A DNA stretch of 64,000 nucleotides from an uncultured Ilumatobacter sp. (GTDB lineage Bacteria > Actinomycetota > Acidimicrobiia > Acidimicrobiales > Ilumatobacteraceae). Each line of letters opens with the position of its first letter. The first letter of the stretch is position 1. Positions 1 through 37,690 of the stretch are shown here, in pieces. Where the stretch lies: NCBI GenBank assembly GCA_905182555.1, contig CAJJBX010000013.1, positions 62,001 to 126,000 of the forward strand, read 5' to 3'. The position numbers and the translations under genes are program-made. The notes under the pieces were generated by a model that saw only the letters and a program-made list of their open reading frames with translations, was not told where the DNA came from and ran no database searches.

Positions 1-189
1 CTTGCGACCTGGCTGCTGCAGGACGAGTGGTATTCGAAGGGGCTCGGGCTGCCAAGGCTCCCCGGGTTCCCATCTCACGCCGAAACGATCGAACGGTACG
101 CCGAGCTCTCGGGCCACGAAATCCGAGACCTTGAGTGGTGGCGCAAGTTCACGATCCTGCGCTTTTCGCTGACGCGGGCTCTGCGATGA
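1..189 (+). CDS. Phosphotransferase-like protein, C-terminal fragment (cut by window start)
   Basis: The reading frame is open from the first base and ends in TGA at 187-189, giving about 62 residues. The tail (GLGLPRLPGFPSHAETIERY, then LEWWRKF and TRALR) closely parallels the tail of the next gene (GLGLQPIPGFPSEGETLERF, QWWKDF, KRALRA). This is therefore the end of a paralogue of that aminoglycoside-phosphotransferase-like (APH) protein, and the two form a tandem duplication. Its stop overlaps the next start as ATGA, so the two are probably co-translated. Substrate and catalytic residues lie outside the window. Confidence 0.75.
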   Translation, partial: LATWLLQDEWYSKGLGLPRLPGFPSHAETIERYAELSGHEIRDLEWWRKFTILRFSLTRALR

Positions 190-1163
190 CCCAGCGTGGA
201 CGGCCGACTGATGGTGTGGACCCGTCCGTCGTCAAGCACCAACTGGAGCAGTGGCTGATTGAGGTTCTCGATCTCGATGCAGAAATCCAGGCGCTCTCCG
301 TTCCCGCCTGGTCCGGACACGGAGATCAGAACTGGTTCGTGTCAGTTCGTGACAGGGCCGAAGTGACCGCCCCGGTACGGGAGTGGGTTCTTCGAATAGA
401 GAACCCAACCTCAGTCGATCTCGGAGTTGATTTCGGTCTTCCCTTTGAGGTGTTCTCGGCGCTGTCGAACTTCAGCGACGTCCCTGTGCCGCGATCGATC
501 GCCCTTGAGTTGTCGTCGGAGTACTTTGGCGCACCGTTCTTCATCACCGAGCGGGTTCGTGGCCGAGAAGTTGAGGATCACCCTCCGTATGCGTTCGCGG
601 GTTGGTTGTGGGAGGCCTCAGTTGAGGAGCAGCGTCGAGTTGCAAACTCGGTGATTGACACCGTTGCCAATCTGCATCTCGTCGATGCACGGCAGGCGTC
701 GTTCGCCTTTCTGCAAGACGGTCGAACCACGATTGGGACCGACTCCGCACTCGCCAGATGGCGGTTGCTGCTCGACAGGTGCGATGACGGTCGAGCAGCC
801 AAGGCGGCCCGATCGATGTGGCCACTGCTTCTCGATGGTCGCCGAGACGATCCCCCATCCCGGTCGATCTGCTGGGGCGAGGCTCGACTTGCCAACATGA
901 TCTTCACCGACTGCACGGTGGGCGCCCTCCTCGACTTCGAGGACGTCAAGTTAGGCGCTCCCGAAGCTGACGTCGGCTCGCTGCTCTTCCGAGACGAAAT
1001 GATGACTCAGGGTCTGGGACTTCAGCCGATCCCCGGCTTCCCCTCGGAAGGCGAGACCTTGGAGCGATTCGGCTCGCTACTCGGCAGAGACCTTGAGAAC
1101 ATCCAATGGTGGAAGGACTTTGCGCAGTTCCGCTACCTGGTGAAACGGGCATTGCGCGCCTAG
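186..1163 (+). CDS. APH-family phosphotransferase-like protein
   Basis: A 325-residue protein. I chose the ATG at 186 because it overlaps the upstream stop as ATGA; an in-frame ATG at 135 would overlap much more. Near residue 230 is WGEARLANMIF, followed near 250 by LLDFEDVKLG, which match the Brenner loop and metal-binding DFE/DWE of the APH fold (small-molecule or acyl-CoA-associated kinases). The usual catalytic Asp of the W/HGD loop is Glu here, so kinase activity is uncertain. The stop shares the palindrome CTAG (1160-1163) with the stop of the convergent methyltransferase gene. Substrate unknown; no sign that it belongs to the RiPP pathway. Confidence 0.75.
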   Translation: MTQRGRPTDGVDPSVVKHQLEQWLIEVLDLDAEIQALSVPAWSGHGDQNWFVSVRDRAEVTAPVREWVLRIENPTSVDLGVDFGLPFEVFSALSNFSDVPVPRSIALELSSEYFGAPFFITERVRGREVEDHPPYAFAGWLWEASVEEQRRVANSVIDTVANLHLVDARQASFAFLQDGRTTIGTDSALARWRLLLDRCDDGRAAKAARSMWPLLLDGRRDDPPSRSICWGEARLANMIFTDCTVGALLDFEDVKLGAPEADVGSLLFRDEMMTQGLGLQPIPGFPSEGETLERFGSLLGRDLENIQWWKDFAQFRYLVKRALRA

Positions 1164-1993
1164 CCAGAAAGCGAATGAGCCGAGCCCGGGGCGGTGCCGG
1201 TACAGAGGAAGCCGAGCGCGATCATGAGTGCGTCCGGGTCCTCGAGCAGCCGCTCATGATCAGAGACCACCCGCGCATATTCCTGAATAGAGATGAGCCC
1301 TGTCTCCAAGTGGGGAAGCAGGTTGTCTGGTTTTGTGAGAGCCATGAAGGCTTCAACGCCGACTTCGTCACTCGAGGACGCGAACGGGAACAGTTCAACA
1401 CTTTCGCAGCCGGCCTCGGCGAGAATTCGCGTCAGCTTCCTACCAATGAAGCGGTCCCCACCTCTTTCGCGCTGTGACTCGAACACGCGCGAGTGGATAC
1501 CCGAGTTCGCGTCGTTGTAGGGCTCGCTCAAACCCCACAGTTGGCCGTCGAAGTCGATCACGATGAGCCGACCACCCGGTCGGAGTACGCGGAGCGCTTC
1601 GCGTGCGGCGTCGACAGGCCGTCGCAGGTGCTGATAGACGAATCGAGCGATGACGACGTCGGCACAGTTCGACTCAAGAGGGATCGCCTCGGCCGACCCG
1701 GTCGAGATTGCAGCACGTGGTGTGAGGTCTCGCCTGAGTAGCTCACGCATCTGCGTATCTGGCTCAATGAGTGTGAAGTCAGCAGCGGGGAAGCGATCAA
1801 CGAGCATGCGCGAGAATGCCCCTGAGCCAGCCCCGACCTCCACAATGTGATCGTCCGCTCCCACACCGAGAGCCTCCAAGAGGAAGAGTTCTTTCGCCCC
1901 GGTCAGCCCTGCCTGCGCCTCAAGTCGCTGCATCTCGCCTTCGGCGCCGCCCGCCATCCGGTCCGGCTCGTAGGAGCCATCCCCTGCGCTCAC
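1160..1993 (-). CDS. Class I SAM-dependent methyltransferase, RiPP tailoring candidate
   Basis: A 277-residue methyltransferase. The glycine-rich SAM motif VEVGAGSG lies near residues 51-58, followed by an acidic LIEPD strand end and a VLRPGGRLIVIDFDG post-motif segment typical of type 11 methyltransferases. A longer frame runs upstream to 2152, but the GTG at 1993 overlaps the P450 stop as GTGA, the strongest signal for the true start. It is translationally coupled to the P450 and divergent from the precursor peptide operon, so modification of the peptide (for example N- or O-methylation) is plausible. The substrate is not shown by sequence. Confidence 0.8.
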   Translation of the reverse strand: MSAGDGSYEPDRMAGGAEGEMQRLEAQAGLTGAKELFLLEALGVGADDHIVEVGAGSGAFSRMLVDRFPAADFTLIEPDTQMRELLRRDLTPRAAISTGSAEAIPLESNCADVVIARFVYQHLRRPVDAAREALRVLRPGGRLIVIDFDGQLWGLSEPYNDANSGIHSRVFESQRERGGDRFIGRKLTRILAEAGCESVELFPFASSSDEVGVEAFMALTKPDNLLPHLETGLISIQEYARVVSDHERLLEDPDALMIALGFLCTGTAPGSAHSLSG

Positions 1994-3315
1994 GGCCGCC
2001 GAACCCGCATGGGCATGCCTTCTGCCGGCTTCAGCGTGACCAGCGCTTCGGGGAGAACTTCGTGGCCCGGCCACAGCTCGAAGTCGACGTCGCGGCACAA
2101 AGTAGCGAGGACGAGTTGGGCCTCCATGAGCGCAAATCCTCGTCCGATGCACAATCGGGGACCTCCGCCGAAGGGCAGAAAGGTGAATGGGTCAGGGCTT
2201 TCGATATCGACGAACCTCCGAGGTTTGAATTCAGTCGGGTCAGGCCACAGATCCGCCTCACGATGAATCAACCAGGGGCTCACGCACACCAGCGAATCTG
2301 CTGGGACATCAAAGTCGGAAAGTTGGTCGTCGGAGACCGCCCGGCGCGAGATCACCCAGATCGGTGGGTACAACCGCATAGCTTCGTTGATGACGGCTCT
2401 CGTCATGGCGAGTTCGGGCAGTTGAGCCACGGTCGGCGGGGAATCGCCGCAAACCCGGTTGACCTCGATCCGCACGTCCGCCGCGATCGATGGGTGCTGG
2501 GAGAGGAGGTACAACGACCATGTCAGAGCTTTCGCAGTCGTCTCGTGCCCAGCCATCACCATTGTCATGACCTGGTCGCGAAGCTCGCGGTCACTCAGCG
2601 CTTCTCCTGCTGGGGTCCGGTGCTCCAGGAGAACCCCAAGAAGGTCGGGGAGGCCTGAGTCGTCGGTTCCGACAAAGCGACGTGCCCTGATGAGCAACCG
2701 AACAATTCGATCGATCGTCTGACGCGCCGTCACGAAGGAGGCAAAGTCTGCTCGCACCACGTCGGTATCGGGCGTGTCTCGAGGGTCGCCGTGAGAAACC
2801 GCCGCATTCACCGCATCGACGGCGCGGCCGAATCCTTCACCGATATCTCCAAGTTCGCCGCCGAGAATCGCAGTCACGACGACTTGGAGCGTGAGTCCTG
2901 TCAGGTCGTGGTCCGCACGAATCGGCTGTTTCTCGTCTCGTGAAGTCCAGTCGGCGACGAGTTGAGCGGCCTGCCGTTGGATGGCGCCACCAAACTGCTC
3001 CACCCGGCGCCGTTGAAACATCGGGTTGGTGTACTCACGCTGCGCACGCCACGAGTCGCCATGCGACGTCAGCAATCCTTCTCCGAGCAGCGGCGTCAGC
3101 ATCGAATTCTAGCACGCAGCCACGGACCGCCTGTGGCGTGCGAGGAGTACCTCCCGGGCGATGTCTGGTGAAGAGATCAGGAACACTCGTTGGCCGTGTT
3201 CGGTCAGGTGTGTGGAAACCGGTCCGAATTCGGCCCGCTGACTCTCGAGAAACCCGAGCGGATCGAGCCGGATATGTTCTGCAGTGACTGGCTGGCTCGG
3301 GCCTGGTGGAAACAT
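1990..3315 (-). pseudogene. Cytochrome P450 interrupted by an in-frame TAG
   Basis: The frame from ATG 3315 to TGA 1990 reads as one cytochrome P450 of normal length (about 440 residues) with a single TAG at 3111-3109. Before the stop is the N-terminal P450 region (DPLGFLESQRAEFGPV, IAREVLL); after it come MLTPLLGEGLLTSHGDSWR, the I-helix MAGHETTAKAL, the ExxR motif NEAMRL and the haem loop FGGGPRLCIGRG with its Cys. No frame change is needed across the stop. Translation could restart at ATG 3102, but the product would lack the N-terminal 71 residues. It probably oxidises the RiPP product if functional. A base error or real nonsense mutation are both possible. Confidence 0.75.
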
Positions 3316-3477
3316 CTAGCGGCCCCCGCGTGCTCGGCCGCAGCACGCTTTTGACAATGCAATACCGCGCAAATTGGTAAAATTCTTGGCTTTAGATGGT
3401 GAGACGCTGGCGATCATCGTGAGAAGAGGCTACATTCTGAATTCCGCACACAAAACCAACAGAAAAGTAGGCATAAA
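3316..3477. promoter_or_regulatory. Divergent promoter region of the RiPP cluster
   Basis: This AT-richer 160-bp gap separates the leftward P450/methyltransferase pair from the rightward precursor operon, so it should hold both promoters. A TTGACA at 3351-3356 and a TAAAAT at 3378-3383 are visible on the plus strand, but their 21-bp spacing is longer than the usual 17, so the exact promoter is unsure. A purine-rich stretch (GAAAAGTAGG) precedes the precursor ATG and may be its ribosome binding site. Confidence 0.4.
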
Positions 3478-3840
3478 ATGACCAATCTTAATAGCGAACA
3501 ACGCAAGGATTTCATCGGCGGATACACCAAATTGTTGACCGCAGCGTGGAGCGCAGACGATTTCGACGCCTTCGTCGCCTCCATCTCGGCTGATGCATCA
3601 GGCACGCTGGCCGGTTACGGATTGCCGATGCCGACCGGTGCCGCTATTGAGATCCGTACCCAGGGTGACGGCGGGGAAAGCCTCGATCAAGCGGTCGAAC
3701 TGTGGGAGAAGGGCATCAACGGTGGCCTGTACACCATCTACGTGATTCACGACGACGACATCGAATCTGTGAACCTTGAAGAGGTCTCGGGCGCTGGAAC
3801 CTACTGCTGTAGCTGCTGCCCATGCTGCACCTGCACGTGA
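3478..3840 (+). CDS. NHLP-type azole RiPP precursor peptide, Cys-rich core
   Basis: A 120-residue precursor. The leader (about residues 1-107) resembles the nitrile-hydratase-alpha-like NHLP family: helix YTKLLTAAWSADDFDAF, then LAGYGLPMPTGAAIEIRTQ, ending in an acidic stretch and SGAG. The core is TYCCSCCPCCTCT (3799-3837), 13 residues with seven Cys, one Ser and three Thr, the residues a cyclodehydratase turns into azolines. Cleavage is expected at or beside SGAG by the C39 domain of the exporter at 8.5 kb. The RRE/YcaO/SagB genes follow on the same strand. A hairpin after the gene may raise its transcript level over the rest. Which residues become azoles, and the cleavage point, are inferred. 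Confidence 0.88.
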   Translation: MTNLNSEQRKDFIGGYTKLLTAAWSADDFDAFVASISADASGTLAGYGLPMPTGAAIEIRTQGDGGESLDQAVELWEKGINGGLYTIYVIHDDDIESVNLEEVSGAGTYCCSCCPCCTCT

Positions 3841-3886
3841 GCCCCAATGCGCCGCGTAGCGACACCGGTTACGCCAATTGAGATGG

Positions 3887-3912
3887 AGCCACGTGTGGCT
3901 ACATTTTACTTT
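3887..3912 (+). terminator. Possible attenuating hairpin after the precursor gene
   Basis: AGCCACGTGTGGCT at 3887-3900 can fold into a short stem (AGCCA/TGGCT around CGTG) and is followed by a T-rich tract (ACATTTTACTTT). In RiPP operons a partial terminator just after the precursor gene commonly gives more precursor than enzyme transcript. The stem is only 5-6 bp, so this is tentative. Confidence 0.4.
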
Positions 3913-3954
3913 ATGCGATGCCAAACAAACATGATTAATGGCAAATAAGTGACA

Positions 3955-4389
3955 ATGCCGAACCCAACCCGTCCGCGCCTTAGATCGGACATTCGAGCTG
4001 AGGTAGTCAGTGATCACGAGGTGCTGGTTATGTCCGGTGCCGATCGATACATCTTCGATTCCGCTGCGACTGTCGCTTGTCTGCCGCTCTTAGACGGAAC
4101 ACGCGAGGTGGCCGACATTGCGACGGAACTCAGCGATCGTTTCGCTCCAAGGCAGATTGCGCGAGCAATTGCGTCGCTCGTCGTTCCGGGGCTTGTTGTA
4201 GACGGGCCGGTCATCGGGACACAGGACGAGACGGCCTGGCTCGATGCTCTGGGAACGGGGTCCGCGGAGGGGTTCTCGGCTCTTTCGAGTGCATGCTTCA
4301 GTTCCACGCCTAATCGCATAGAAATCGCATTCCCCTTATTCGCAGCGAGAGGTCGTCGAGGTAGGCGAGCTGCCCCACCATCGCCTTGA
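3955..4389 (+). CDS. RRE-type leader-binding protein (N-terminal part of TOMM cyclodehydratase partner)
   Basis: Residues 1-90 (RPRLRSDIRAEVVSDHEVLV through DRFAPRQIARAI and SLVVPGLVV) look like a PqqD-like RiPP recognition element, the winged-helix domain that binds leader peptides. In related systems this domain is the start of one long ThiF-like/YcaO protein. Here the frame runs out at 4389. The short stretch 4340-4400 makes better sense in a second frame (VVEVGELPHHRLDVALCDEL) before the YcaO frame takes over, implying two small indels. GTG 3949 is an alternative start. I read this as the first third of a split protein, either by sequencing error or real damage. Confidence 0.7.
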   Translation: MPNPTRPRLRSDIRAEVVSDHEVLVMSGADRYIFDSAATVACLPLLDGTREVADIATELSDRFAPRQIARAIASLVVPGLVVDGPVIGTQDETAWLDALGTGSAEGFSALSSACFSSTPNRIEIAFPLFAARGRRGRRAAPPSP

Positions 4390-4403
4390 CGTCGCCCTCT
4401 GCG

Positions 4404-6212
4404 ATGAGCTTCGCGCTCGATGACCTCGACGCATTCAACCGATCTGCCCTTGCCAACGGCCGTCCATGGCTTCTTGCATCACCGGTCCGGGCTGAACTGT
4501 GGCTTGGACCATTGTTCGAACCTGGTGCGACTGGTTGCTGGGAGTGCCTCAGGCAGCGGCTCGCAGGTAATCGGCAGATGGAGCGCTACCTGCAGCGAGT
4601 TCGCGGAGTCGAATACGACCTCTCCATGGTGCCAGCATCGACCCCAGCGGTCGCATTGGCCGCAGCCTCCATGCTGACAACTGAAGTGGAACGATTCGCG
4701 GTTGGGGCCGCGCACCACCCGGGCCTCCTCGGCCGTCTCGTCACTCTGGATCTCCTGACCTGGGAATCCGAGACGCACGTGCTGGTTCGTCAACCCCAAT
4801 GTCGAGCCTGCGGGGACGCAAGCATTGCCACGAATGATTCGCCGATCGAACTGTCCAAGCAGGCCAAGGTCGACGGTGTGGACAGCGGTCATCGAGTGAT
4901 CCCTCCAGCCGAGACCATCGCACGGCTCGAGCACCACGTCAGCCCGATACTCGGCGCAATCACTCGCCTGCACCGGTTCGAAGAAGGAGACTCCGAGGTC
5001 TCTCACAACTGGTCAGCCGGCCACAACTTCGCGATGATGTCGAACTCGACCTACTTGTTGAGGAAGAACATACGAGGCCTGAGCGGCGGGAAGGGTCGAA
5101 GCGACGTTCAAGCGAAGGCGAGTGCCATGTGTGAGGCACTCGAGCGGTATTCCGGTGTGTGGCGTGGAGATGAACATGTTCGGCGTGCAAGCGCATCCGA
5201 GCTGGGTGCCGACGCGCTCGACCTCGGTGAGCTCCTCGGCTTCTCAGATCACCAGTATGAAAACCGCGTTGAGTGGAACTCCCACCAGACCAGCGGTATC
5301 CATTTGGTGCCCTTCCGACTCGACTCTGACCGGAAGGTGGACTGGACCTCAGTGTGGTCTCTCACCGAGTCCAAGCCCGCCTGGGTCCCAACTTCATACT
5401 GCTACTTCGGCCACCCTGACGCCTTCGAAGACCCGTTTTGCTTCAGTGACGCGAATGGGAACGCCGCGGGCAACACCCTCGAGGAGGCGATTCTCCAGGG
5501 CCTTCTCGAACTGGTCGAACGAGATTCCGTCGCTCTCTGGTGGTACAACCGGCTGAGGGTGCCCGGAGTCGAACTTGAAACGATCGACGACCCCTACATT
5601 GAGCAACTGAAGCGCTTCTACACCTCAATGGGTCGCAGTCTGCAACTGCTGGACGTGACCTTCGATCTCGGTATTCCGTCATTCGTGGCTATGTCTCACC
5701 GATTCGACCATCCAGTCCAGGATCCGCTGATCGGGTTCGGCTCGCACGTCGAGCCAAGGTTGGGAGCGCTCCGGGCGCTCACTGAATGCAATCAGTTCCT
5801 GCCGAGTGTCAGCCAGCGCGATGCCTCGGGTGCCACCCGCTATCTCTTCGATGACCCTGAGATGCTCGACTGGTTCACCACTGCCACGACCTCGAGCGAG
5901 TCGTATCTCATTCCGGATCCGCAACGGCCGACCGTCGACATCTCGAAAATGGACGGCCTGACCTCCGACGACATATCGGAAGAGATTCGGCTCTGTGTCG
6001 AGGTTCTGAGGAGCCGAGGCCTTGAGGTGTTCGTCCTCGATCAGAGCAGACCGGATCTTGATGTCAAGGTTGCCAAGGTCATCGTTCCGAATCTCCGGCA
6101 CTTCTGGCGGCGACTCGGAAAGGGCCGGCTCTACAACGTGCCTGTCGAACTCGGACTGCTTCCCGAGGCTGTCGACGAGGCAGCGCTCAACCCCCGGAGC
6201 ATCTTCTTCTAA
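4404..6212 (+). CDS. ThiF-like/YcaO TOMM cyclodehydratase
   Basis: About 600 residues. The first 150 (ALDDLDAFNRSALANGRPWLL, CWEC near 45-48, CRAC near 133-136) match the ocin-ThiF-like domain with its four-Cys zinc site. The rest is a YcaO domain, with AMCEALERYSG and EEAILQGLLELVERD carrying acidic residues of the ATP/Mg site. YcaO enzymes phosphorylate the amide to cyclise Cys/Ser/Thr into azolines, here presumably on the CCSCCPCCTCT core. The C terminus NPRSIFF lacks the proline-rich PxPxP tail seen in many azoline-forming YcaOs. A TTG at 4386 is another possible start. The stop overlaps the next start as TAATG. Confidence 0.88.
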   Translation: MSFALDDLDAFNRSALANGRPWLLASPVRAELWLGPLFEPGATGCWECLRQRLAGNRQMERYLQRVRGVEYDLSMVPASTPAVALAAASMLTTEVERFAVGAAHHPGLLGRLVTLDLLTWESETHVLVRQPQCRACGDASIATNDSPIELSKQAKVDGVDSGHRVIPPAETIARLEHHVSPILGAITRLHRFEEGDSEVSHNWSAGHNFAMMSNSTYLLRKNIRGLSGGKGRSDVQAKASAMCEALERYSGVWRGDEHVRRASASELGADALDLGELLGFSDHQYENRVEWNSHQTSGIHLVPFRLDSDRKVDWTSVWSLTESKPAWVPTSYCYFGHPDAFEDPFCFSDANGNAAGNTLEEAILQGLLELVERDSVALWWYNRLRVPGVELETIDDPYIEQLKRFYTSMGRSLQLLDVTFDLGIPSFVAMSHRFDHPVQDPLIGFGSHVEPRLGALRALTECNQFLPSVSQRDASGATRYLFDDPEMLDWFTTATTSSESYLIPDPQRPTVDISKMDGLTSDDISEEIRLCVEVLRSRGLEVFVLDQSRPDLDVKVAKVIVPNLRHFWRRLGKGRLYNVPVELGLLPEAVDEAALNPRSIFF

Positions 6213-7672
6213 TGGTGGTCACCGGTTTGGAGGAGAGGATCAGGCTGAGGGACTCAGCCGAGTTCGAGTTGCTGAATGGCTCCATGACTATTTCGGCCTT
6301 CCTCCACCGGTTCAGCTTCAAGTTGGCCGACGATGGTGTCGCCACGGCGATGTCGCGTCTCGGAACAACCAACGGGCCGTCCGAACTCGCCCCGACGACA
6401 TCCGAACTGGAAAACTTGGCAACCGAGTTCGGAAATGAGACCTCCGTGCTCGGGCTTGGAAAACTGCTCGGCCGGTTGACTCTGTCCGGATTGGTGGGGA
6501 GAACAATTTCGTTCGCGGGTGAAGCCCAGTTCTCCATCATCCCCGATGCCCTTCCTGCCATCAGCGACTCACTCGAGTGCACGCCGTCGACAGTCGTGTC
6601 GTTGTCGCGTTTCGTGTTCCTGCGCGTCGACAAGACGAAAATTCTTCTCGAGACCCCCCGTTCTGGCTGGATCATTGAGATCCATGATCCGACTCTGATG
6701 ACCGTCATTGGCCAGTTGGCATCGCCCGCAACGGTCAAAGAGCACCTGGAGCGGGTCGTCCCGCAAGAAGGTGACAATCAAGAGATCGAGCGGCGCCTGC
6801 TCAGTGCACTTGGCCGCGCTGGGATGCTGACCAATCACGCGAGCCCGACCGAGGCGTCGGAAGAATCACTCGACCCATCCTTGAGGGTCTGGTCAGCCCA
6901 CGATCTACTCTTCCACCAACGCAGTCGCGTCGGTAGGAGCAGGCAACCGTTCGGCGGTACGTACCGGTTCGTTGGCACTGAGGTGCCTCCGCCGAGGTAC
7001 AGGCGTCCGGTTGACGACCAGCCGAAGATCGAGCTGCCCTCCTCCACGGACTGTGGTGAGGTCGCAGAGAACTACTTCGGACTCCTGAACCAGCGCAGAT
7101 CACAGCGCGAGTTTGATGACGGGCGCCCTGTCAGTCTCGGCGACTTGGCTGAGTTGCTGTGGAGGACCACCCGTGTGCGCGATGTTCGCGAGACCGAATA
7201 CGGAGAAATCGTCGATCGCCCGTTCCCCTCAGGCGGCGCTGTGCACGAGCTCGACACGTATATCGCTGTTCGCACCGTCGACGGTCTCGCGCCCGGCCTC
7301 TACCGATACGACCCGGTCGATCACTTGCTCGTCCTCGTCCACCCAGAATCACGGGAGTTCTGGACCTGGTTCCACAGCGTTCCGCCCTGGCCGGAACCAT
7401 CAACGCAACCGCAGGCAGTTCTCGTCATCGCGAGTCGGTTTGATCGCGTCATGTGGAAGTACGAAGGTATGGCCTATGCCGTCATGCTGAAGAACACCGG
7501 CGTGCTGATGCAAAGCTGGTCGCTTGCGGTTGAGGCGCTCGGCCTGGGCGGTTGCCCGCTCGGCGCTGGCGACTCAGAGGGCTTTGCGCGAGTCGCAGGG
7601 CTCGACCCGTATGTCGAGTCAAGTGTTGCCGAGTTCGCAATCGGACGACCGGATAACCGGCAGCCACTATGA
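6212..7672 (+). CDS. SagB-type FMN azoline dehydrogenase
   Basis: A 486-residue protein. The C-terminal half (from about residue 285) is a SagB-type nitroreductase fold: NQRRSQREFDDG, GLYRYDP, WKYEGMAYAVMLKNTGVLMQ and EALGLGGCPLGAGD. Such enzymes use FMN to oxidise azolines to aromatic azoles; the WKY motif resembles the conserved Lys-Tyr pair of this family. The N-terminal half holds two winged-helix-like segments (near 20-100 and 128-210), possibly extra leader contacts. ATG 6212 overlaps the YcaO stop, indicating translational coupling. It should finish the thiazoles made by the YcaO. Confidence 0.88.
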   Translation: MVVTGLEERIRLRDSAEFELLNGSMTISAFLHRFSFKLADDGVATAMSRLGTTNGPSELAPTTSELENLATEFGNETSVLGLGKLLGRLTLSGLVGRTISFAGEAQFSIIPDALPAISDSLECTPSTVVSLSRFVFLRVDKTKILLETPRSGWIIEIHDPTLMTVIGQLASPATVKEHLERVVPQEGDNQEIERRLLSALGRAGMLTNHASPTEASEESLDPSLRVWSAHDLLFHQRSRVGRSRQPFGGTYRFVGTEVPPPRYRRPVDDQPKIELPSSTDCGEVAENYFGLLNQRRSQREFDDGRPVSLGDLAELLWRTTRVRDVRETEYGEIVDRPFPSGGAVHELDTYIAVRTVDGLAPGLYRYDPVDHLLVLVHPESREFWTWFHSVPPWPEPSTQPQAVLVIASRFDRVMWKYEGMAYAVMLKNTGVLMQSWSLAVEALGLGGCPLGAGDSEGFARVAGLDPYVESSVAEFAIGRPDNRQPL

Positions 7673-7684
7673 GGAGCAGACAAC

Positions 7685-8479
7685 GTGACTGACGACCAAA
7701 CACCCAACGCGGCCCAGCAGAAGACAAGCCACCGTGATTTGGATTCTTCCCTCAAGACAACGAAGCCACAGACTTGGGTCGCTGTCACTGCGATAGCCGT
7801 TGCGCTTGTCGTTGCCCTGACCTGGTCGGTGGTGGCAACCATCCCCATGAAAAGCACTGCGACTGGTGTGCTGAACAACATGCGGTACGGCTACAGCTTG
7901 ACCGCACCTGCGGCCGGATTCGTGCAGCTGACCGGAATTGAGAACGGAATAAAGGAAAAACAACAGGTTGGAACGGTCACCTCCGAAAGCGGGGACTCGG
8001 TACCTTTGATGTCCCTCGGGGCCGGGGAAGTCGTCTCTCTTTTTGTCATGCAGAACCAGTACGTCGAACTTGGCGATGCCATCGCAAGCATCTCCTTCCA
8101 GCCAGCCCTTAATGAACCAATCGAACTCATCACTTTTGTCGGTGAGAGCGACATGGATTTCTTTCCTGTCGGCGGAGTTGTCCAACTCTCGGCGGTCGAT
8201 ACGGCCTCCGGCGCGCGTATTCATGCGACCGGAACAATTCAGGGTGAGACTGAGCTTCCCGCGACCGACACCACCATGTTGAACGTCAGCGCTCAGAGTC
8301 AGAGCTTGACCGATGACTGGATGACAGCCAGCGACGGTTACCCCTTCGCTATCTTCATAGCAAGCGATGACTGGCCAACGGGCGACAGCGGATTCGTCCC
8401 GCGCGGGGGCCAGATTGTCAACATCGAGAGGGTGTACACCTCCGTTCGCCCGATTTCTCGGCTCTTCGGAAAAGGCTGA
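7685..8479 (+). CDS. NHLM system HlyD-like secretion protein
   Basis: A 264-residue membrane-fusion-like protein: a cytoplasmic N terminus, one membrane helix at about 31-52 (WVAVTAIAVALVVALTWSVV), then a beta-rich extracytoplasmic part with a lipoyl-like segment (LTAPAAGFVQLT, LGAGEVVSLFVMQNQYVELGD). The GTG start at 7685 has a good GAGGAG upstream. Length and position, between the dehydrogenase and two ABC transporters, match the secretion protein of NHLM bacteriocin export systems. It probably joins the two ABC proteins in a complex at the membrane. Confidence 0.8.
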   Translation: MTDDQTPNAAQQKTSHRDLDSSLKTTKPQTWVAVTAIAVALVVALTWSVVATIPMKSTATGVLNNMRYGYSLTAPAAGFVQLTGIENGIKEKQQVGTVTSESGDSVPLMSLGAGEVVSLFVMQNQYVELGDAIASISFQPALNEPIELITFVGESDMDFFPVGGVVQLSAVDTASGARIHATGTIQGETELPATDTTMLNVSAQSQSLTDDWMTASDGYPFAIFIASDDWPTGDSGFVPRGGQIVNIERVYTSVRPISRLFGKG

Positions 8480-8482
8480 GAA

Positions 8483-10726
8483 GTGTTCCTCGGGTCAGTT
8501 CTGCGGCGGACCGCGAAAGTGTCGCCGACCAAAGCGCCGGTGACGACAAGCCCCCGGCGGGTCAAGGTACCCACAGTGTTGCAGCAGGCGGCGACTGAGT
8601 GCGGTGCCGCCTCGCTCGGAATGGTGCTCGCACACTACGGAAGGTGGTTGCGGCTCGATGACCTGAGGGATCGACTCGGTGTCGGCCGCGACGGGGCCAA
8701 CGCTCAAGCAATCGTCGACGGTGCACAGGCGCTGGGCCTGAAAGGAAAGGGCCGGAGGGTTGCACCGAGGAAGATCAGCAGCGTGAGCGTCCCAGCAATC
8801 ATCTGGTGGAAGCATCGCCACTTCATGGTTCTAGAGGGCGCGTCCCGAGGGCTGGTGCACGTCAACGATCCGGCGCGCGGGCCAGTTTCCATGCTCTGGG
8901 AGGATTTCAAGTCCGGATATTCCGGCATCGTCCTTGAGTTTGAGCGAACTGATCAGTTCGAAGAGGGTGGGAGCCCGTTTTCCACTCGCAGATCACTCGC
9001 TGTGCGACTCCGCTCGTCGAAATCGGGAGTGTGGTTCGTTGTCCTCGCTGGCCTTTTGACCATGATCCTCGGGCTGCTCGCCGCACCGCTGAGCCAGACG
9101 TTTGTTGACGATGGCCTGGGGGGATCTATTCGCGGTGTCTTGCCCGGGGTCATCGCCGCAATGGCAGTCATCGGACTCTTTCGTTCCGGCCTGACCCTTC
9201 TCCAGTATGGGGTGATCGCCCGCATCCAATCGAAGGTCAGCCTGGTTGGCTCGGTCGGGCTCACCGACCGGCTGCTCCGCCTCCCGATGATCTTCTTCAT
9301 GGAACGTTCAGTCGGCGATTTGAGCCAACGGGCCGCCTATAACTCACGGGTTGCGATGCTCGTCGCGAACCAGCTGGCGAGCTCTGCAATTGCGCTCCTG
9401 GCGGTCGCGGGTTACGCAGCACTGCTCATCTTCTACAGCCTGCCGATCGGAATGGTCGTTATCGGCCTGACAGCGGTCAATGTCGCGATTCTGAAGGCCG
9501 TGTCGGACCGAAGGAACACCCTTCAATCGCGCATCATCCGGCAGCAGAACGACCTAAGAGGACTGTCGCAGGCTTCGATCCGGAACGTTGAGACTCTCAA
9601 GGCAACCGGCAAGGAGGACGACACCTTCACCGATCTGGCTGATCTCCAGACCGACTTCGTGTCTGCTTCGGGACAACTGGTACCGACATCGGCTGTGCTC
9701 GCTGCCGCACCCCCGGCGATCAGCGCCCTGACAACCGCCGCCATCCTCTTCATGGGGGGAAGGGAAATCTTGGCCGGCTCAATGTCGTTCGGCGCGCTGC
9801 TCGCTGTGCAGGCTCTTGCGGTCAGCCTGAGTCACCCAGTCCAGCAACTCATGAGCGCGGGTAGCCAACTCCAGGTGATTACGACGAGCCTTCAAGCCCT
9901 CGACGACGTACTCGTCAACGAAACTGCTGGCAGATTTACCCGAACCGCTACCGACCAGGGGTTGAGGACCAAGCCGTTCACTGGACGACTTGACTTCGAC
10001 GAAGTTCAGTTCAAGTACAACGAGAAGGCTCCAGATCTCATCGACCATCTGAGCTTTTCCCTGATGCCAGGAAGTTCCACGGCTCTGGTGGGTGTATCCG
10101 GGGCCGGCAAGACGACGATTGGCAACCTTGCTGCAGGCTTGCTGGAGGCGACCGGAGGCCGGGTGCTGTTCGACAGCGTCCTGCTCTCCGACTTCGCTGA
10201 AGGCGTGATCGAGAACGGACTCGCAAAAGTCGATCAGGACGTCGTCCTGTTCTCAGGAACGGTCGCCGAGAACGTGACGCTGTGGGATCCAACCATCGAT
10301 CGCGAACAGATCTCTCGGGCGCTCGCCGACGCCCAGGTCCTTGGCGACGTCCTGCTGCGAAACGGTGGCTTGGATGCGGTCGTTGAAGAAGACGGACGGA
10401 ATTTCAGCGGAGGCCAAGCCCAGCGAATTGAGATCGCACGCGCAATCGTTCGTCAGCCCTCCCTTCTCATTCTCGATGAGGCGACCAGCGCCCTCGATGA
10501 CGTCACCGAAGCCCGTGTCATGGACTCGATCAGACGCCGAGGGATCTCATCGCTCATCGTCGCCCACCGGCTCAGCACGATCCGCGATGCAGACGAAATC
10601 ATTGTCCTTGGACGAGGTGGGAAGGTGCTCGAGCGGGGCAGCCATGCGGAACTCATGGGTATAGCAGATGGGGCTTACAGACGTATGGTGACTGAGGCAG
10701 GAGATGGTGGCGATGTCGGAAGCTGA
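8483..10726 (+). CDS. NHLM peptidase/permease/ATPase (C39-ABC exporter)
   Basis: A 747-residue exporter in three parts. An N-terminal C39 peptidase has the catalytic Cys in ATECGAAS (about residue 40) with His in HRHFMVLEG and Asp in NDPARGP; such domains cut leaders after small-residue pairs, matching SGAG in the precursor. A transmembrane domain spans about 170-460. The nucleotide-binding domain has Walker A GVSGAGKTT (near 536), FSGGQ (near 641) and Walker B LLILDEATSALD (near 663). GTG 8483 lies 3 bp after the previous stop. It should remove the leader and export the azole peptide. Confidence 0.9.
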   Translation: MFLGSVLRRTAKVSPTKAPVTTSPRRVKVPTVLQQAATECGAASLGMVLAHYGRWLRLDDLRDRLGVGRDGANAQAIVDGAQALGLKGKGRRVAPRKISSVSVPAIIWWKHRHFMVLEGASRGLVHVNDPARGPVSMLWEDFKSGYSGIVLEFERTDQFEEGGSPFSTRRSLAVRLRSSKSGVWFVVLAGLLTMILGLLAAPLSQTFVDDGLGGSIRGVLPGVIAAMAVIGLFRSGLTLLQYGVIARIQSKVSLVGSVGLTDRLLRLPMIFFMERSVGDLSQRAAYNSRVAMLVANQLASSAIALLAVAGYAALLIFYSLPIGMVVIGLTAVNVAILKAVSDRRNTLQSRIIRQQNDLRGLSQASIRNVETLKATGKEDDTFTDLADLQTDFVSASGQLVPTSAVLAAAPPAISALTTAAILFMGGREILAGSMSFGALLAVQALAVSLSHPVQQLMSAGSQLQVITTSLQALDDVLVNETAGRFTRTATDQGLRTKPFTGRLDFDEVQFKYNEKAPDLIDHLSFSLMPGSSTALVGVSGAGKTTIGNLAAGLLEATGGRVLFDSVLLSDFAEGVIENGLAKVDQDVVLFSGTVAENVTLWDPTIDREQISRALADAQVLGDVLLRNGGLDAVVEEDGRNFSGGQAQRIEIARAIVRQPSLLILDEATSALDDVTEARVMDSIRRRGISSLIVAHRLSTIRDADEIIVLGRGGKVLERGSHAELMGIADGAYRRMVTEAGDGGDVGS

Positions 10727-13278
10727 AGAACACGGCGGGTCCTTCTCCCGACTGCGGGTCAAGACGGCCTCTCCTGCGATCCAAGTGGTCTCAGGCACTG
10801 TCGAAGTGTTCGCGGAGGTCGAGCAGCGGCGTCTGCTTCCTCTGGCAACATGCTCCGAAGGCTCGGTGATCGTGCCGCCTGATTCAGGGGCTGGGCTGCT
10901 TTTGATCGCACACGCGACTGCGTCGGTCTCACAGGTCGACGATCCGGATGACGTAGCTGTCCAGACGTTCGTCGGACAACTTGGCGACGGTCTTGGAAGT
11001 GGCGTCGAGGCACTCGTGGGTGTTGCGCCCTCGGCATTCCCTCAGCTGTTCGCTGCAGCGATCCATGCTGCTGCCGAACTCAGAGAAGAACAGGTAATTC
11101 GGGCGGTCGAGACAACGCTGGAGGAGTCCGGTCGGGTCCGAGAACGCTCATTGAATCGGGCCCAGTTCGAGGCCTCCGAATTAGCGCTTCCCGCGGACGA
11201 GTCGGGGTCGGCCCCGGTTGTCGCAGTCATGCAACTGTTGGGCGCGGTCCAGAACTTCTCGGTTGTGGTGCCGAGCCAGGGTGAGTACGAAAGCGCCCAG
11301 GACAAGGTTCAAGCCGTTGCCCACCGGTCCAACCTTCGTTTCCGAACCGTCCAGCTTGATGACGCTTGGAACAAGAGCGATGTCTCCTCGTATCTCGGGT
11401 CGTATCAAACGTCCTCGGGTGGCTCTGAGCCGGTAGCTCTCATCCGCAGAGGCAACAGGTACACAGTGCAGGGAGCCGACGACCTGTTGCCGCGGCCCGT
11501 CACCAACGATGAACTCGACCGAATCGACCACGAGGTCTACGAGTTCTACACACCGTTCGACCCTGATCGGCCGACCGTGTTGCGCGACATCCTCCGAGTG
11601 TCGTTTCTGAACACGAGCTGGTCGTGGATGACGGTTCTGCTGCTGGCCTCCTTCGGCGCGCTGCTCGGCCTCCTCACCCCGATCCTCACCCAGATCGTGA
11701 TCAGTCGACTCATTCCGGACGGTCTCGGTGGTTTGCTCTGGGCCGCGGGCGGCGCCCTCGCGATGGCGGCGGTCCTGCTGTTCGTGGTCTCAGTCGTCCA
11801 GAACCTTGCGGTCGGCCGCATTTCGCAGCTGGCCACACGGAACCTTCAGGCCGCTTTCTGGGATCGGTTGCTGTCACTTCCAGTGTCGTTCTTCCGGCGC
11901 TTCAACTCCGGTGAGCTCGCGGTTCGCGCCCTGGCAATCGACAACCTGTCGCAAACCCTGAGCGTGCAGGTCGTGAGCTCCCTGCTTACTGCGATGTTCG
12001 GTTTCATCTTCTTGGTCCAGATGATGCTGTACGACGTCATGCTCGGTCTGGCTGGATCATTCATCATCTCAGCAACAGTTCTTGTGCTCTATCTGACCTT
12101 TGTTGCCTCGAGTCGGGAGCAGACGAATCAGCTCGATGCCCAGATGGCGGCGAACGGGTGGCTAGTTCAGATGCTCACGGCCCTACCGAAGCTTCGGATT
12201 GCACATGCTGAGGATCGCATGAGCGCTCGATATTTCGAGTTTCTTGGGCGATCGATCATGGCGCAATCGAGGGCAACCTTGGTGAATGGTCGTCTCTCGG
12301 CATGGTTCGCCCTGGTGACAACGGGAGCACCCGCGGTCTTCTACGCCGTGGTGCTGCTCCGCTGGAACGGTGATGCGGCTCCGCTGACAACCGCGACCTT
12401 CTTGGCCTTCTACGTCGCTTTCACAATCGCCTTTGGCTCGATTTCGGGGCTTGCTGTACCGCTCTCCTCGCTCGCCGTCGTCGCTCCGATGTACCGCTTG
12501 TTGGAGCCGGTCATGACCGAGCTGCCGGAGTCAAATCCAAACCTCCTCGATCCGGGCAACCTCTCAGGAAAAATCGAGTTCCGCGACGTGCGGTTCCGAT
12601 ATGCACCGGGCAGCCCGCTCGTGCTCAAGGGTCTCTCGTTGATCGTCGAACCCGCTGAACTCGTTGCGATCGTCGGCACGACCGGGGCTGGCAAGTCGAC
12701 CCTCACCCGACTCCTTCTCGCTTTCGAACAGCCAGAGGAGGGACAGGTCCTGCTGGACGGCAGGGATCTGTCCACACTTGATCCAAGAGCGGTCCGACAC
12801 CAGATGGGTGTTGTGACCCAAAGCGGTCGAATCAGCCGAGGGACCGTGTTGAAGAATATCCTCGGTGCCGGATCTGAAGATGACGACGCCGCATGGGCAG
12901 CAGCTTGAGGGCGCCGCAGTCGCCGATGACATCAGGGCAATGCCCATGGGGATGCATACTCTGGTCGACCCGGGCAATATCTCAGGTGGCCAGGCACAAC
13001 GACTTCTCATTGCGCGGGCGCTCGTCACACGACCGAAGATCATGATCATGGACGAAGCGACGAGTGCCTTGGACAACGTTGCGCAGGAGCAGGTCACTGA
13101 GGCGCTTGCAAATTTGAAGGCAACCAGACTTGTCATTGCGCATCGGCTCTCGACAGTCAGGTCGGCAGATCGGATCGTTGTTCTCGACAACGGCATCGTC
13201 GTCGAGTCAGGCACGTTTGATGAGCTTATGAACTCGCAGGGTTTCTTCGCCGATCTTGTCCGGAGGCAGGTCAGCTGA
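10713..13278 (+). CDS. NHLM ABC transporter permease/ATPase (frameshifted near 12905)
   Basis: The second ABC half-transporter of the export set. An N-terminal region of about 300 residues without peptidase motifs precedes a transmembrane domain and an ATPase domain with Walker A GTTGAGKSTL. The frame ends at 12908 inside the ATPase domain, and the rest (ISGGQAQRLLIARAL, Walker B IMIMDEATSALD, HRLSTVRSADR) continues in the next frame to 13278. Dropping one T near 12905 rejoins AWAAA to EGAAVADDI. ATG 10713 has AGGAG eight bases upstream and overlaps the previous gene; ATG 10704 is the alternative. Sequencing error or a real lesion are both possible. Confidence 0.82.
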
Positions 13279-13485
13279 CTCACGCCTACTCGGCGCGCGG
13301 CCAGAGCCTCACCGCGACAGCCATCAACTTGGCTGGAAGATCGCCGGTGCTCGCAGCGAGTTGTGGGTCCATCCCCGACGGGTCGGCCGACGTCAGCAAA
13401 CCTCGGGGCGCCTCCGCACCCTGAACTGTCATTGCCGACCGACAAAATCACCAAGAGGCCCGGCGAGCGCAGTCTCAGCCCTGCG

Positions 13486-15417
13486 TCACTCGTCGTAGAA
13501 GTCTTCGGCGAGCCCGGCCTCATCTTCAAGGGCGAGTGTGTCGTCGATCGAACCGTCGGAACCGAAATCGAAGTCCAGATACATCGGGCTTCCATCACCC
13601 TCCCACTCGAAGAAGTTCACGTACAGGGTGTCGTCAGCCTCCAACTCGATCTCGTCGTTGCCAAAGAAGTACTCGCCTTCATCATCGATGCGCGCAACCA
13701 GCAGTTCATAGACACCAAGCTCGGTCTGGTCAGTGGTGTCGAGGATGAAATCGCCGTTCGGGTAGTCGAGGATCACGTTGAACGAGCCGCCGGGCTCGAT
13801 ATCGGAGCCCCGGACAATGGCCTCATAGTCGGCCTCATCAGTGGACACTGCCAACCAGATATAGGGCGAGTCGGCGTAGTCACTCGAGTAGTTCAGTTCG
13901 AGGTATTCACCGTCGACGACGCTGACCTCAATGAGATCCCATTCACCCGGGTCGAGCACCACATCCTCAACCTCCATGCTGAAGTCCGCCCCAATCATCG
14001 TGACGGTGGAAACCGCTTGCTCGTCGAGTTGCGACCCATCGATGGTGACCGAGAATTCGGTCATGTCACCCGGGATCACGTACACGGGCTCCTCCTTGAT
14101 GTCCCAGACAGCGACGCCGAACTTGAAATCGGTGGCAGTCGCGCCGTCGATCTCGTTGACGAATGTGCCGTCTTTGAGCCAACCAACCCGACGGCCGTCG
14201 AGCGCAGTGATCAGCAGGTTGGCGTCACCGTCCAACCAAATTTCGATGCCGTCATTGCCCGCCTGCAGGACCGTTGCGTAACCCGAGACTTCGCTTGAGG
14301 AAGTAAATGCTGCGTCCTGTGAACCAAGTCGCGGCGAAGTCGGATGGATGCTGAGCGAGTCAGTATCGGCATCGCCCTCGTACAGGTCGGTTTCGACATT
14401 CGGGTTGGTGGACGCCTCGTACTGCCACGTGTCGGCATCGCGATCAATGGTGAGGACACGGCCCTGGCTGGGGTAGTTGTTGTCATAGACAAAGACCTTG
14501 TATGTATCGTCGCCGTTGCCCTCGACCGCGTACGGCGTCACAGCATGACCACCGGTGCCATCACGCTTGAAGATGCCGATTGACCACGACTCGTCGGCTT
14601 GCTGACCCTCGCTGAACGACTCGATCAACGTGTCGAGGACTTCGCTGGGCGAACCGTCCACCCTTTGCGACGCCCCAGGGGAGGTCGCCTGCGTCACCCA
14701 CCAATAAGCGATTTCGCGTTGCAGCGCTTCATTCCCCGAAATCTCCAGGTCGCGCACCGAGTCGGCACCAAAGACGCTCGTGTCCGAGCCGCCGAAGTAG
14801 AACAGCGAACTGAGCACGGCCATGCCCTCGCAATGACCTCCGGCCATGTACTTGTTCATCTGCTCCATCCACTGCCGGGCAGGAGGCGCGAGGGTGCAAC
14901 CGTCGACCTGATTCGCACAAACGCCGTCACCAAACATGCGCTGCATTTCAATGGCGGTCAGATCGACTGCGCCTGTGTCGTCGCCGTAGTTCGCGAAGCT
15001 GAACGCGTCGACGACCGGATCGAAGCCACTACTGACCGAACCGGCTCCGAGGGCCGGAGTGGGCTCCGATGCGGCCTCACTGGATCCCTCGTCATCGCTC
15101 GGGTAGCACTCGTCGAGAATGAAACCGTCGGCATCGACGCACTCGTCGGGAACCTCGCCGCCTTCCCAGCAGGCGTCGAACGCCTCATCATCGGCGAAGC
15201 ACTCGAATGGGATGATCGACGACCTGGTCCCGCCTGACTCGTCGGCCGCATCAGCCGTGTCGTCCGTGTCAGTTGCATCGACTTCTTCGGTCGTGTCGTC
15301 TGTTTGTTCGAGCGCCTGTGAGTCGGTGCTCGCCACACCAGATTCAGTGCTCCCGCCGCCGCACGCGGCAGTACTGATCAACGCGATGGCGACAAGTGTT
15401 CGGAAAAATTTGGTCAT
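13486..15417 (-). CDS. Acidic lipoprotein with papain-like Cys/His/Asn pattern
   Basis: A 643-residue protein starting at ATG 15417 with GGAGG just upstream. The signal MTKFFRTLVAIALISTAAC has a lipobox (Cys 19), so it should be membrane-anchored outside the cell. An acidic Ser/Thr/Asp linker follows. Near residue 194 is GGHCEGMAVLSS, near 290 GGHAVTPYAV and near 311 VYDNNYP: Cys, His and Asn/Asp in the order and contexts of papain-like proteases or transglutaminases. The C-terminal half is beta-rich and very acidic. It follows the pentapeptide-repeat gene by 43 bp on the same strand. Family not recognised; protease or peptide-transfer activity is inferred from the triad only. Confidence 0.7.
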   Translation of the reverse strand: MTKFFRTLVAIALISTAACGGGSTESGVASTDSQALEQTDDTTEEVDATDTDDTADAADESGGTRSSIIPFECFADDEAFDACWEGGEVPDECVDADGFILDECYPSDDEGSSEAASEPTPALGAGSVSSGFDPVVDAFSFANYGDDTGAVDLTAIEMQRMFGDGVCANQVDGCTLAPPARQWMEQMNKYMAGGHCEGMAVLSSLFYFGGSDTSVFGADSVRDLEISGNEALQREIAYWWVTQATSPGASQRVDGSPSEVLDTLIESFSEGQQADESWSIGIFKRDGTGGHAVTPYAVEGNGDDTYKVFVYDNNYPSQGRVLTIDRDADTWQYEASTNPNVETDLYEGDADTDSLSIHPTSPRLGSQDAAFTSSSEVSGYATVLQAGNDGIEIWLDGDANLLITALDGRRVGWLKDGTFVNEIDGATATDFKFGVAVWDIKEEPVYVIPGDMTEFSVTIDGSQLDEQAVSTVTMIGADFSMEVEDVVLDPGEWDLIEVSVVDGEYLELNYSSDYADSPYIWLAVSTDEADYEAIVRGSDIEPGGSFNVILDYPNGDFILDTTDQTELGVYELLVARIDDEGEYFFGNDEIELEADDTLYVNFFEWEGDGSPMYLDFDFGSDGSIDDTLALEDEAGLAEDFYDE

Positions 15418-15460
15418 GACGTTCCTCCGAACACCGTGTCGAATGTGAGATGTTGCGTAA

Positions 15461-15850
15461 TCATCGAGTTGAACCATCGGGCATGGTCGTGTTGTTAAAG
15501 CGGGTGCCAATGGTGATTGTCATCTCCATGTTGGCGTCGCTGAGATTTGCGTCGGTGAGGTTCGCCCTGGCGAGATCAGCCCAGTTCAGGTTGGCGCCGG
15601 ACAGGTCCGCACCGGTGAGGTTCGCTCCGGCGAGAATAGCACCGCTCAGGTCAGCTTGAGTCAGGAGCGCGCCGGACAGATCGCAGCCGTCGAGCCGGGC
15701 GACACTGAGGTTCGCTCCGGACAGATCGGCGCCACTCAGATCGAGTTCATAGAGGTCGGCCTTCGACAGGTTGCGCACATCGGGCTCCGCTGTCGACGGA
15801 TCTTGCTCATCGCCGCCAGCAGCGCGCTCCACGTTCGTATCAGTACCCAT
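15461..15850 (-). CDS. Pentapeptide-repeat protein
   Basis: A 129-residue protein whose residues about 25-105 are pentapeptide repeats of the A(D/N)LxG type (LSGADLSGANLSVARLDGCD and onward), predicted to form a right-handed quadrilateral beta helix. The N terminus is acidic and there is no signal peptide, so it should be cytoplasmic. Some pentapeptide proteins protect DNA gyrase from inhibitors, but nothing here specifies that role. It probably forms an operon with the acidic lipoprotein downstream, and lies about 2 kb past the RiPP exporters in the opposite direction. Confidence 0.8.
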   Translation of the reverse strand: MGTDTNVERAAGGDEQDPSTAEPDVRNLSKADLYELDLSGADLSGANLSVARLDGCDLSGALLTQADLSGAILAGANLTGADLSGANLNWADLARANLTDANLSDANMEMTITIGTRFNNTTMPDGSTR

Positions 15851-16007
15851 GGGATCCCTCTACGCCCCAGGGGACTGCTCGGATGAGCCGCCGTAGGTTG
15901 TTGTTTAAAGATCCTATGACAAGTAATCGACATAAGTTGTGCGGGTGTGATACTGCACCTCCACATTGGCTGCTGCGCAGCGCAATCGAAGCCGCGCGCT
16001 CGTCGGG

Positions 16008-26669: not shown

Positions 26670-26708
26670 ACAGTTGCGTATGGGGTCAGGCCCCTTTCGC
26701 AACTCTGT
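26670..26708. repeat. Palindromic repeat, copy A
   Basis: An arm CAGTTGCG and its partner CGCAACTCTG surround GGGGTCAGGCCCC, forming a two-level stem-loop. Three further copies lie at 28010, 30968 and 31425; this copy is in the same orientation as the one at 31425. The convergent Rieske gene ends inside it: its last residues (DRVAKGA) and its TGA come from the repeat. Confidence 0.88.
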
Positions 26709-36741: not shown

Positions 36742-37690
36742 CTAGACCTCAGAGAGTAAGTCGCCACTTGTCACCCACGGGACAAGGTTCGCGAAGAATC
36801 GTTCAGCTGCGCGGCGCGCCGTGCCATCGGTGCTGCCGGAGTTGTGCGGTGTGATGATCACGTTGGGTAGTGCCCACAGTGGATCGTCGGCGGGTAGCGG
36901 TTCGGGATAGGTCACGTCGAGGCCGGCACCACCGAGCATGCCGGTCGCCAGCGCCTTGGTCAGGGCCAACTGATCGACCAGCTCGCCACGCCCAACGTTG
37001 ACGAAGAACGCGTGCGCTTGCATCGCGCTGATCAGGTCAGCGGAGATGATGCCGTGCGTGTCATCGTTGAGCGGCAACGCGAGCATCTTCGCCCCCGCCG
37101 CCGGCGACCCGAGCGAGCTCGGCGAGCGGACGGACGGGACATGTTTCGTCGCCCTGAGCCTGGCGCCGGACGATCACGGGTTGCATGCCAAACGCTGTGG
37201 TCAGGCGAACTACTTCCTGACCAATCGGGCCGTAACCGACGACGGCGACGCTCTTGCCTTCGAGTTCGCTCCATCGATCCCACGCCCACTCGGCATTGGC
37301 CTGTGCTCGCATCATCCGCGGGAGATCGCGGGCCAAGGCGAGGAGGAACATCATGACGGTCCGAGCAATCGGCGAGCTGCTCGAACCCGACGAGTTGGTG
37401 AGACGTACGCCGCGGTCCTTGAGCGTCTGGAAGATCGGACTGTCGACACCGGCCGACATCGAGTGCAGCCAAGCCAAGTTGTCGGCTCGCAACGCCACGC
37501 CGAAATAGTTCCCTGCGCGCTCGGGCCAGGCGTCGTGCGAGAAGAACGCGATCGTGATCCGTTCCAGGTCGGCGTCGGCAACGGGTTCTTCGTTGACAAG
37601 TAACACCGTCTCGATGTCCGGTGCAATGGCGGTGACCTGATCGCCCCACGCCTTCCAGAAGGTGTCAGTGCAAAACAGAACATCACTCAT
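36742..37690 (-). CDS. D-2-hydroxyacid dehydrogenase, frameshifted near 37075
   Basis: One NAD-dependent hydroxyacid dehydrogenase of about 315 residues, in two frames. The first (from ATG 37690) has SVAVVGYGPIGQEVVRL (NAD motif). The second (ATG 37086 to 36742) has LPLNDDTHGII, FFVNVGRGELVDQ, GAGLDVTYPEPLPADDPLW and NVIITPHNSG with the catalytic His. The break lies in a run of Gs (GGCGGGGGCGAAG), a classic place for a miscounted base. Reduces 2-ketoacids or the reverse. Its start overlaps the CMD-family stop as ATGA. Confidence 0.82.

Follow-up and report, generated by a model that had tools for sequence, protein, structure and literature searches.

Precursor peptide and leader

What does the Cys-rich peptide gene at this locus give rise to, and do its neighbours form a pathway of a known kind? 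In the window, by which we mean the whole 64,000-nucleotide stretch of DNA analysed here, the precursor gene (3478..3840, forward strand) was recognised from its open reading frame and from homology to relatives. It encodes 120 aa with an apparent NHLP-type leader and a Cys-rich core, ends in GTYCCSCCPCCTCT, and carries seven Cys within its final eleven residues. By itself, the window precursor matched no NCBIfam family. TIGR03793 was found in three of five aligned precursors (best 1.8e-11; the window protein is not among them), TIGR04351 in four of the five, and Pfam NHase alpha gave a weak match for two. A profile of the five precursors, searched against the PDB, matched NHase alpha chains (5.3e-5) and the NHLP structure 8tb1 (6.3e-5). 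The precursor of locus L010 in G490, a genome of the window's own genus, is 62% identical to the window protein. An NHLP leader, as claimed in an earlier note on this DNA, is supported for the window protein through these relatives.

Cys was absent from the leaders of all seven precursors compared, and the CxxCSC metal motif of NHase is thus lost from the leader. In PMC12455567, an NHLP leader is described that uses its first helix together with an L(X)4L motif to bind an RRE-YcaO protein. Close to the cleavage site, on its N-terminal side, we found LSESDL (G020 and G073), LSDEQL (G580), LEPDRL (G490) and IESVNL (window). These look like the L(X)4L motif of the MprE7 type, the window's IESVNL being a conservative form.

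Modification and export genes

The genes that follow lie on the forward strand. The first segment (3949..4389) encodes the RRE and the first part of a fused cyclodehydratase, and is broken off in this assembly. Its PqqD-like match is weak (18.6 bits, under the cut-off of 46; TIGR03859, E 0.0012), and it aligns to residues 26-137 of a 778-aa relative. The E1-like and YcaO part (4386..6212) scores above the cut-offs for TIGR03604 (249.6 bits vs 219.25) and TIGR03882 (139 vs 36.9), and corresponds to residues 183-778 of the 778-aa relative at 68% identity. RRE, E1 and YcaO form a single protein of 755-783 aa in four relatives. The RRE and the ThiF/YcaO protein that the earlier note listed one after the other are therefore both present, but as one gene in these relatives that is broken here.

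Next come a SagB-family FMN dehydrogenase for the step from azoline to azole (6212..7672; TIGR03605, 145.4 bits, cut-off 78.4; 47% identical to a relative) and a short HlyD-like secretion protein (7685..8479; TIGR03794, 45.2 bits, under the cut-off of 156.2; 39%). An exporter combining C39 peptidase, permease and ATPase (8483..10726) matches TIGR03796 at 747.2 bits, under the cut-off of 853.3, and Peptidase_C39 at 1.4e-27. The second NHLM-type ABC transporter (10704-13278) lies in two frames, with the first part at 10704..12908 (TIGR03797 profile positions 3-562) and the remainder at 12865..13278 (positions 563-686), scoring 438.4 and 210.6 bits against a cut-off of 709.4. TIGR03794, TIGR03796 and TIGR03797 are each the best NCBIfam match of their protein, all under the curated cut-offs.

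Divergent from the precursor, on the reverse strand, lie a cytochrome P450 (1990..3309; PF00067, 4.9e-67), 60% identical to a relative over 439 aa in a single frame with one stop (3109-3111), and a SAM-dependent methyltransferase (1160..2152, homology about 1184-2008; PF08241, 4.1e-18), 48% identical to a relative. Every part named beforehand was thus located. Since full-length relatives of the precursor adjoin the same genes in other genomes, the arrangement is not due to chance.

Some neighbouring genes were also noted. Adjoining the end of the cluster, 13486-15510 encodes an acidic protein of 674 aa whose N-terminus may be lipoprotein-like and which has no Pfam match at E 0.01. Positions 1-1163 (with L009 5224-7163) hold two adjacent phosphotransferase-like (APH) genes. 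An APH relative of 346 aa also adjoins the G490 cluster, so one of these genes may serve the pathway in tailoring or self-protection. In G020, SagB and the HlyD-like gene are separated by L007 13824-15128, which encodes a protein that by eye resembles a solute-binding lipoprotein; no such gene was seen at that place in the window or in L021.

Distribution of related precursors

Precursor searches drew on overlapping genome samples. In the order (298 genomes, E 0.01) five genomes matched, namely the window's own, G020, G073 and two that we judged to be chance. In the class (395 genomes, E 0.001) the five matches were the own genome, G490, G020, G541 (NHLP with another core) and one likewise judged to be chance. 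These presumed chance matches (G256 and G234 in the order, G576 in the class) were rejected because they were short, fell within another reading frame or contained a stop. The family (150 genomes) gave three matches (own, G490, G580), and the phylum (396 genomes, E 1e-6) gave four (own, G869, G883, G1016). G869 alone matched among 24 genomes of its class, and five of 249 genomes matched in the order of G883 (G883, G1225, G1229, G1245, G1120). A precursor search of genome contigs returned three loci, L010, L011 and L012, on the same contigs as G490:C15, G020:C24 and G073:C4.

The window precursor had no match in viral contigs or plasmids. When plasmids were searched with the YcaO part instead, an unannotated precursor came to light on plasmid NZ_CP064706.1 of Bradyrhizobium sp. 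155, which is typed as conjugative. This precursor (L058 8882-9211) ends in CCCCCPPCCSCCG and is missing from the gene table; a YcaO fusion and SagB follow closely downstream of it. A seven-precursor profile found it at 7.1e-13, with one of the four plasmid records searched matching; a plasmid search with the Bradyrhizobium precursor returned itself alone.

Several relatives have additional precursors or enzymes. In G1120 (L061 9877-11028) two precursors that differ in their Cys-rich cores stand in tandem, in a cluster with P450, methyltransferase and a radical-SAM match. In the G883 group (L042, L053-L055) the Cys-rich precursor is accompanied by a second NHLP precursor whose core is hydrophobic and lacks Cys (one example ends in VDVNIVVIAIVI), and L044 of this group has a second YcaO-like gene (8737-9981). 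G1016 (L045 9735-10088) encodes an NHLP precursor with a Cys-free core, alongside ABC genes of the NHLM type and a match to SagB; no YcaO match was found in the 20 kb read of L045.

The core peptide

The earlier note had put the core at 13 residues. In the alignment, Ser-Gly-Ala of the window is placed with Gly-Gly of the relatives, and this boundary gives 14 residues instead, which is the more likely length. The motif before the core is Gly-Gly in G580, G020 and G073 and Gly-Ala in the window and G490, with none clear in G869. From this alignment we infer the cleavage site, and hence a probable core at 3796..3837 (forward strand) with a block of five Cys/Ser/Thr residues, one Pro and another five Cys/Ser/Thr residues.

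The block reads CCSCC-P-CCTCT in the window, CCSCC-P-CCSST in G490 and CCCCC-P-CCSCT in G869, and CCCCS-P-CCTCT occurs three times (G580, G020, G073). This 5-Pro-5 layout is found in all six closest precursors, with four distinct blocks. Cys, Ser or Thr stands at 60 of 60 block positions in the six, and four positions vary. The count leaves out the G883 group, both G1120 precursors, Bradyrhizobium, and the NHLP-like precursors without a Cys-rich core (G541, G1016 and the second precursor of the G883 group). More distant cores are CACCC-P-CCCT with an Ala (G883 group), CCCC-P-CCCC-T and CCSCC-PS-CC (G1120), and CCCCC-PP-CCSCC-G (Bradyrhizobium). A different, non-Cys-rich core in a homologous cluster had been named as evidence against an azole peptide. 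The closest clusters keep the Cys-rich core, whereas the distant precursors of G541 and G1016 and the second one of the G883 group do not.

Heterocyclisation predicts that interchange is limited to Cys, Ser and Thr, whereas peptides that rely on disulfides or metal thiolates would be expected to keep to Cys. Ring formation in the block is supported because these three residues alone fill the ten positions in six genomes. The near-full heterocyclisation proposed earlier thereby gains indirect support. Between G020 and G073 we counted 12 nonsynonymous and 51 synonymous differences in the first 110 codons, and 0 nonsynonymous and 2 synonymous differences in the 11-codon block, where about 1 nonsynonymous difference is expected. 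This comparison fits selection on the core but, as the sample is too small, proves nothing alone.

Putative tailoring genes in the relatives

Proteins of L021 (G490) were used as queries against ten loci; the loci L056, L057 and L059, and those of G1225, G1229, G1245, G541 and G576, lay outside this comparison. P450 and methyltransferase were found in six of the ten: the window, G490 (the source of the queries), G020, G073, G580 and G1120. Neither was found in G883 (L044, L062), Bradyrhizobium (L058), G1016 (L045) or G869 (L043); for G869 the comparison covered 12 kb of its 16.3 kb contig, whose end falls within YcaO. Within the genus, P450 at E 1e-40 was found in two of ten genomes, several of them incomplete; these two, the window's own (G000) and G490, are also the two that carry the precursor. 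The suggestion that P450 and methyltransferase may decorate the peptide is strengthened by their conservation and by this distribution of P450.

A B12 radical-SAM methyltransferase-like gene is present in five of the ten loci (G490, G020, G073, G580 and, partly, G1120). Identity to the L021 query is 48-53% in G020, G073 and G580 and 34% over 408 positions in G1120; G883 gave a 23% match only. The gene was not found in window positions 1-16000 or in the window's own genome, which is 72.7% complete. For the L021 protein the nearest family is that of the KedN5 C-methyltransferases (NF033712, 285.8 bits, cut-off 700); judged by this score, it is a relative rather than a member of the KedN5 B12 radical-SAM methyltransferases.

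Broken genes and assembly quality

The cyclodehydratase, the second ABC transporter (with a frame break in its ATPase domain) and the P450 are broken in the window, while the relatives' copies are unbroken. As three genes are broken in the assembly, the strain may not make the product. A decaying cluster from which nothing is made would account for these breaks and for the lacking B12 radical-SAM match; in the same genome UvrA is whole, and two amidohydrolase genes are nearly so. However, RpoC in the same genome (G000 C5:68062-71818) falls into eight matches, three with stops. Elsewhere in the window, a Rieske/ring hydroxylase (oxygenase) gene and a 2-hydroxyacid dehydrogenase gene look split (four of ten other pieces scanned), with split-looking stretches at 26686-27934 and 36742-37690, which points to frame errors beyond the cluster. 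The reading frames of the precursor, SagB, HlyD-like and C39-ABC genes are open, and the genome (2.56 Mb in 26 contigs) is, at its stated completeness, far from whole. We therefore regard decay as improbable. Because the essential RpoC is also broken, assembly error is favoured, and the breaks in the three cluster genes are probably of this kind; the low completeness of G000 may partly be due to sequence error as well. A frame scan based on codon usage, which reported 11 events for the window and 5 for three control loci together, was discarded, as it flags ordinary overlapping genes and missed the breaks known from homology.

Comparison with known systems

The NHLP/proteusin azole clusters (PMC2887384, Haft 2010; PMC12455567, MprE/MprC/MprD) share with the window the leader, a fused RRE-E1-YcaO protein, an FMN oxidase and a Cys/Ser/Thr core; they have NHLM-type export genes, to which the window's export genes have their best matches. 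The window cluster is grouped with them (PMC2887384) because of its leader and enzymes. By comparison with those accounts, the window core is short, mostly Cys and of 5-Pro-5 layout, Ser-Gly-Ala replaces Gly-Gly, and P450 and methyltransferase adjoin the cluster, joined by B12 radical-SAM in relatives. In the MprE7/MprC/MprD system, as PMC12455567 describes it, an NHLP leader serves an RRE-YcaO protein and an FMN oxidase.

The nearest characterised azole NHLP product that we found is nostatin A, whose cluster likewise has a B12 radical-SAM C-methyltransferase. Its core is very different, and PMC11583998 gives it 30 residues, LanM-like dehydration, an epimerase and a sactionine. No LanM-like dehydratase, epimerase or sactionine enzyme was found among the window proteins scanned.

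Plantazolicin, in the part of PMC4603692 that treats it, has five heterocyclisable residues, two nonpolar ones and five to six further heterocyclisable residues, and a SAM methyltransferase. The window's CCSCC-P-CCTCT matches this arrangement of five and five around a nonpolar hinge, but the hinge is one residue, not two. The plantazolicin precursor is about 45 aa with a core that mostly starts with Arg (same section of PMC4603692), whereas the window has a 120-aa NHLP precursor and a core starting with Gly (or Thr). That section names no P450 or radical-SAM enzyme. The Bradyrhizobium locus L058 resembles the window in its distant NHLP-like leader, its YcaO fusion (39% identical), SagB and its two-block core, and differs in a two-Pro hinge and in that its 21.8 kb gave no match to the P450, methyltransferase, radical-SAM or ABC proteins.

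Of the features that define linear azole peptides (TOMM/LAP), YcaO with an E1/RRE partner is present and the FMN dehydrogenase TIGR03605 is above its cut-off. A scan of window proteins at E 0.01 brought up neither the lanthipeptide-like dehydratase nor the [4+2] cyclase of thiopeptides. Three other readings were set aside: thiazole formation by a GMC oxidase (described in PMC13083261), as the cluster has YcaO; dehydrazoles (PMC10676384), as the proteins scanned included no recognisable dehydratase; and a streptolysin-like peptide, as nothing follows the ring block. Core strings searched in open-licence PMC papers gave one match, unrelated by title, and such a product is unnamed in the titles and abstract starts of this literature among the matches listed.

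Proposed pathway and function

RRE, YcaO, SagB, methyltransferase, P450, C39 and ABC families have established roles, and our proposal follows them. We consider it probable that the cluster makes an NHLP-leader azole peptide, namely an exported and decorated two-block polythiazole. The first steps have been demonstrated for an NHLP leader with MprC and MprD (PMC12455567). In the presumed order, the folded leader would dock on the RRE of the RRE-E1-YcaO protein, which, using ATP, would cyclise the core Cys (probably also some Ser/Thr) onto the preceding carbonyl. SagB would oxidise the azolines to azoles, so that CCSCC and CCTCT would each become a rigid run of perhaps up to five rings, with Pro as the hinge between them. 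For the 14-residue core the calculated [M+H]+ is 1307.211 with seven thiazoles and 1247.133 with azoles at all ten block residues; the values for a 13-residue core are 1250.190 and 1190.111. Methyltransferase and P450 may then decorate the ring product, and in the relatives the B12 radical-SAM enzyme is probably responsible for C-methylation. The C39-ABC exporter would cut after Ser-Gly-Ala and export the product together with the second ABC transporter and the HlyD-like protein.

Most characterised linear azole peptides are antibacterial, and we propose on this ground that the product is secreted against competing bacteria, a role for which the chances seem about even. The seven Cys near the C-terminus, and the ability of tandem azoles to bind metals, would also suit a peptide that is cyclised only in part and serves as a thiol- and thiazole-rich metal ligand, no antibiotic. 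Free-thiol ligation would hardly allow the Cys/Ser/Thr swaps seen at four block positions, and the relatives keep SagB and the C39 exporter, which makes this function very unlikely. As to the mode of action, the two-block layout and the Pro fixed in all six precursors would fit ring blocks that act on nucleic acid or the ribosome rather than on membranes, with a pair of flat blades closing on the target about the hinge, and phazolicin is said to be a linear azole peptide acting on the ribosome. Plantazolicin acts on membranes. Its layout is similar (PMC4603692, plantazolicin section) and the target of a clamp is wholly putative, so this mode of action, although conceivable, is doubtful. The secreted azole peptide described above remains our preferred reading.

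Meaning for the family

Taken together, the cluster appears real and coherent. It would be of a known kind, the NHLP-leader azole peptides, and the new elements would be the two-block core and the tailoring set kept in the closest relatives. Among the literature matches listed, no paper on azole RiPPs of Acidimicrobiales was found by title. As a caution, error-prone assemblies can break such clusters. A broader and unlikely extension is a recurrent class of exported two-blade polythiazoles, with about five azoles per Pro-hinged run, C-methylated and oxidised through a dedicated radical-SAM/P450/methyltransferase set and clamping a nucleic-acid, ribosomal or metal target. Such a class would span several lineages of the phylum to which the window belongs and, with two Pro and without the set, would also be present on the Bradyrhizobium plasmid. 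If our reading is true, the family would be a coherent one with a simple 5-Pro-5 Cys/Ser/Thr core rule that can be mined directly. Its peptides are predicted to be aromatic almost throughout, on either side of a fixed hinge, and it would pair an NHLP leader with P450, methyltransferase and, in the relatives, B12 radical-SAM enzymes acting on oligothiazoles.
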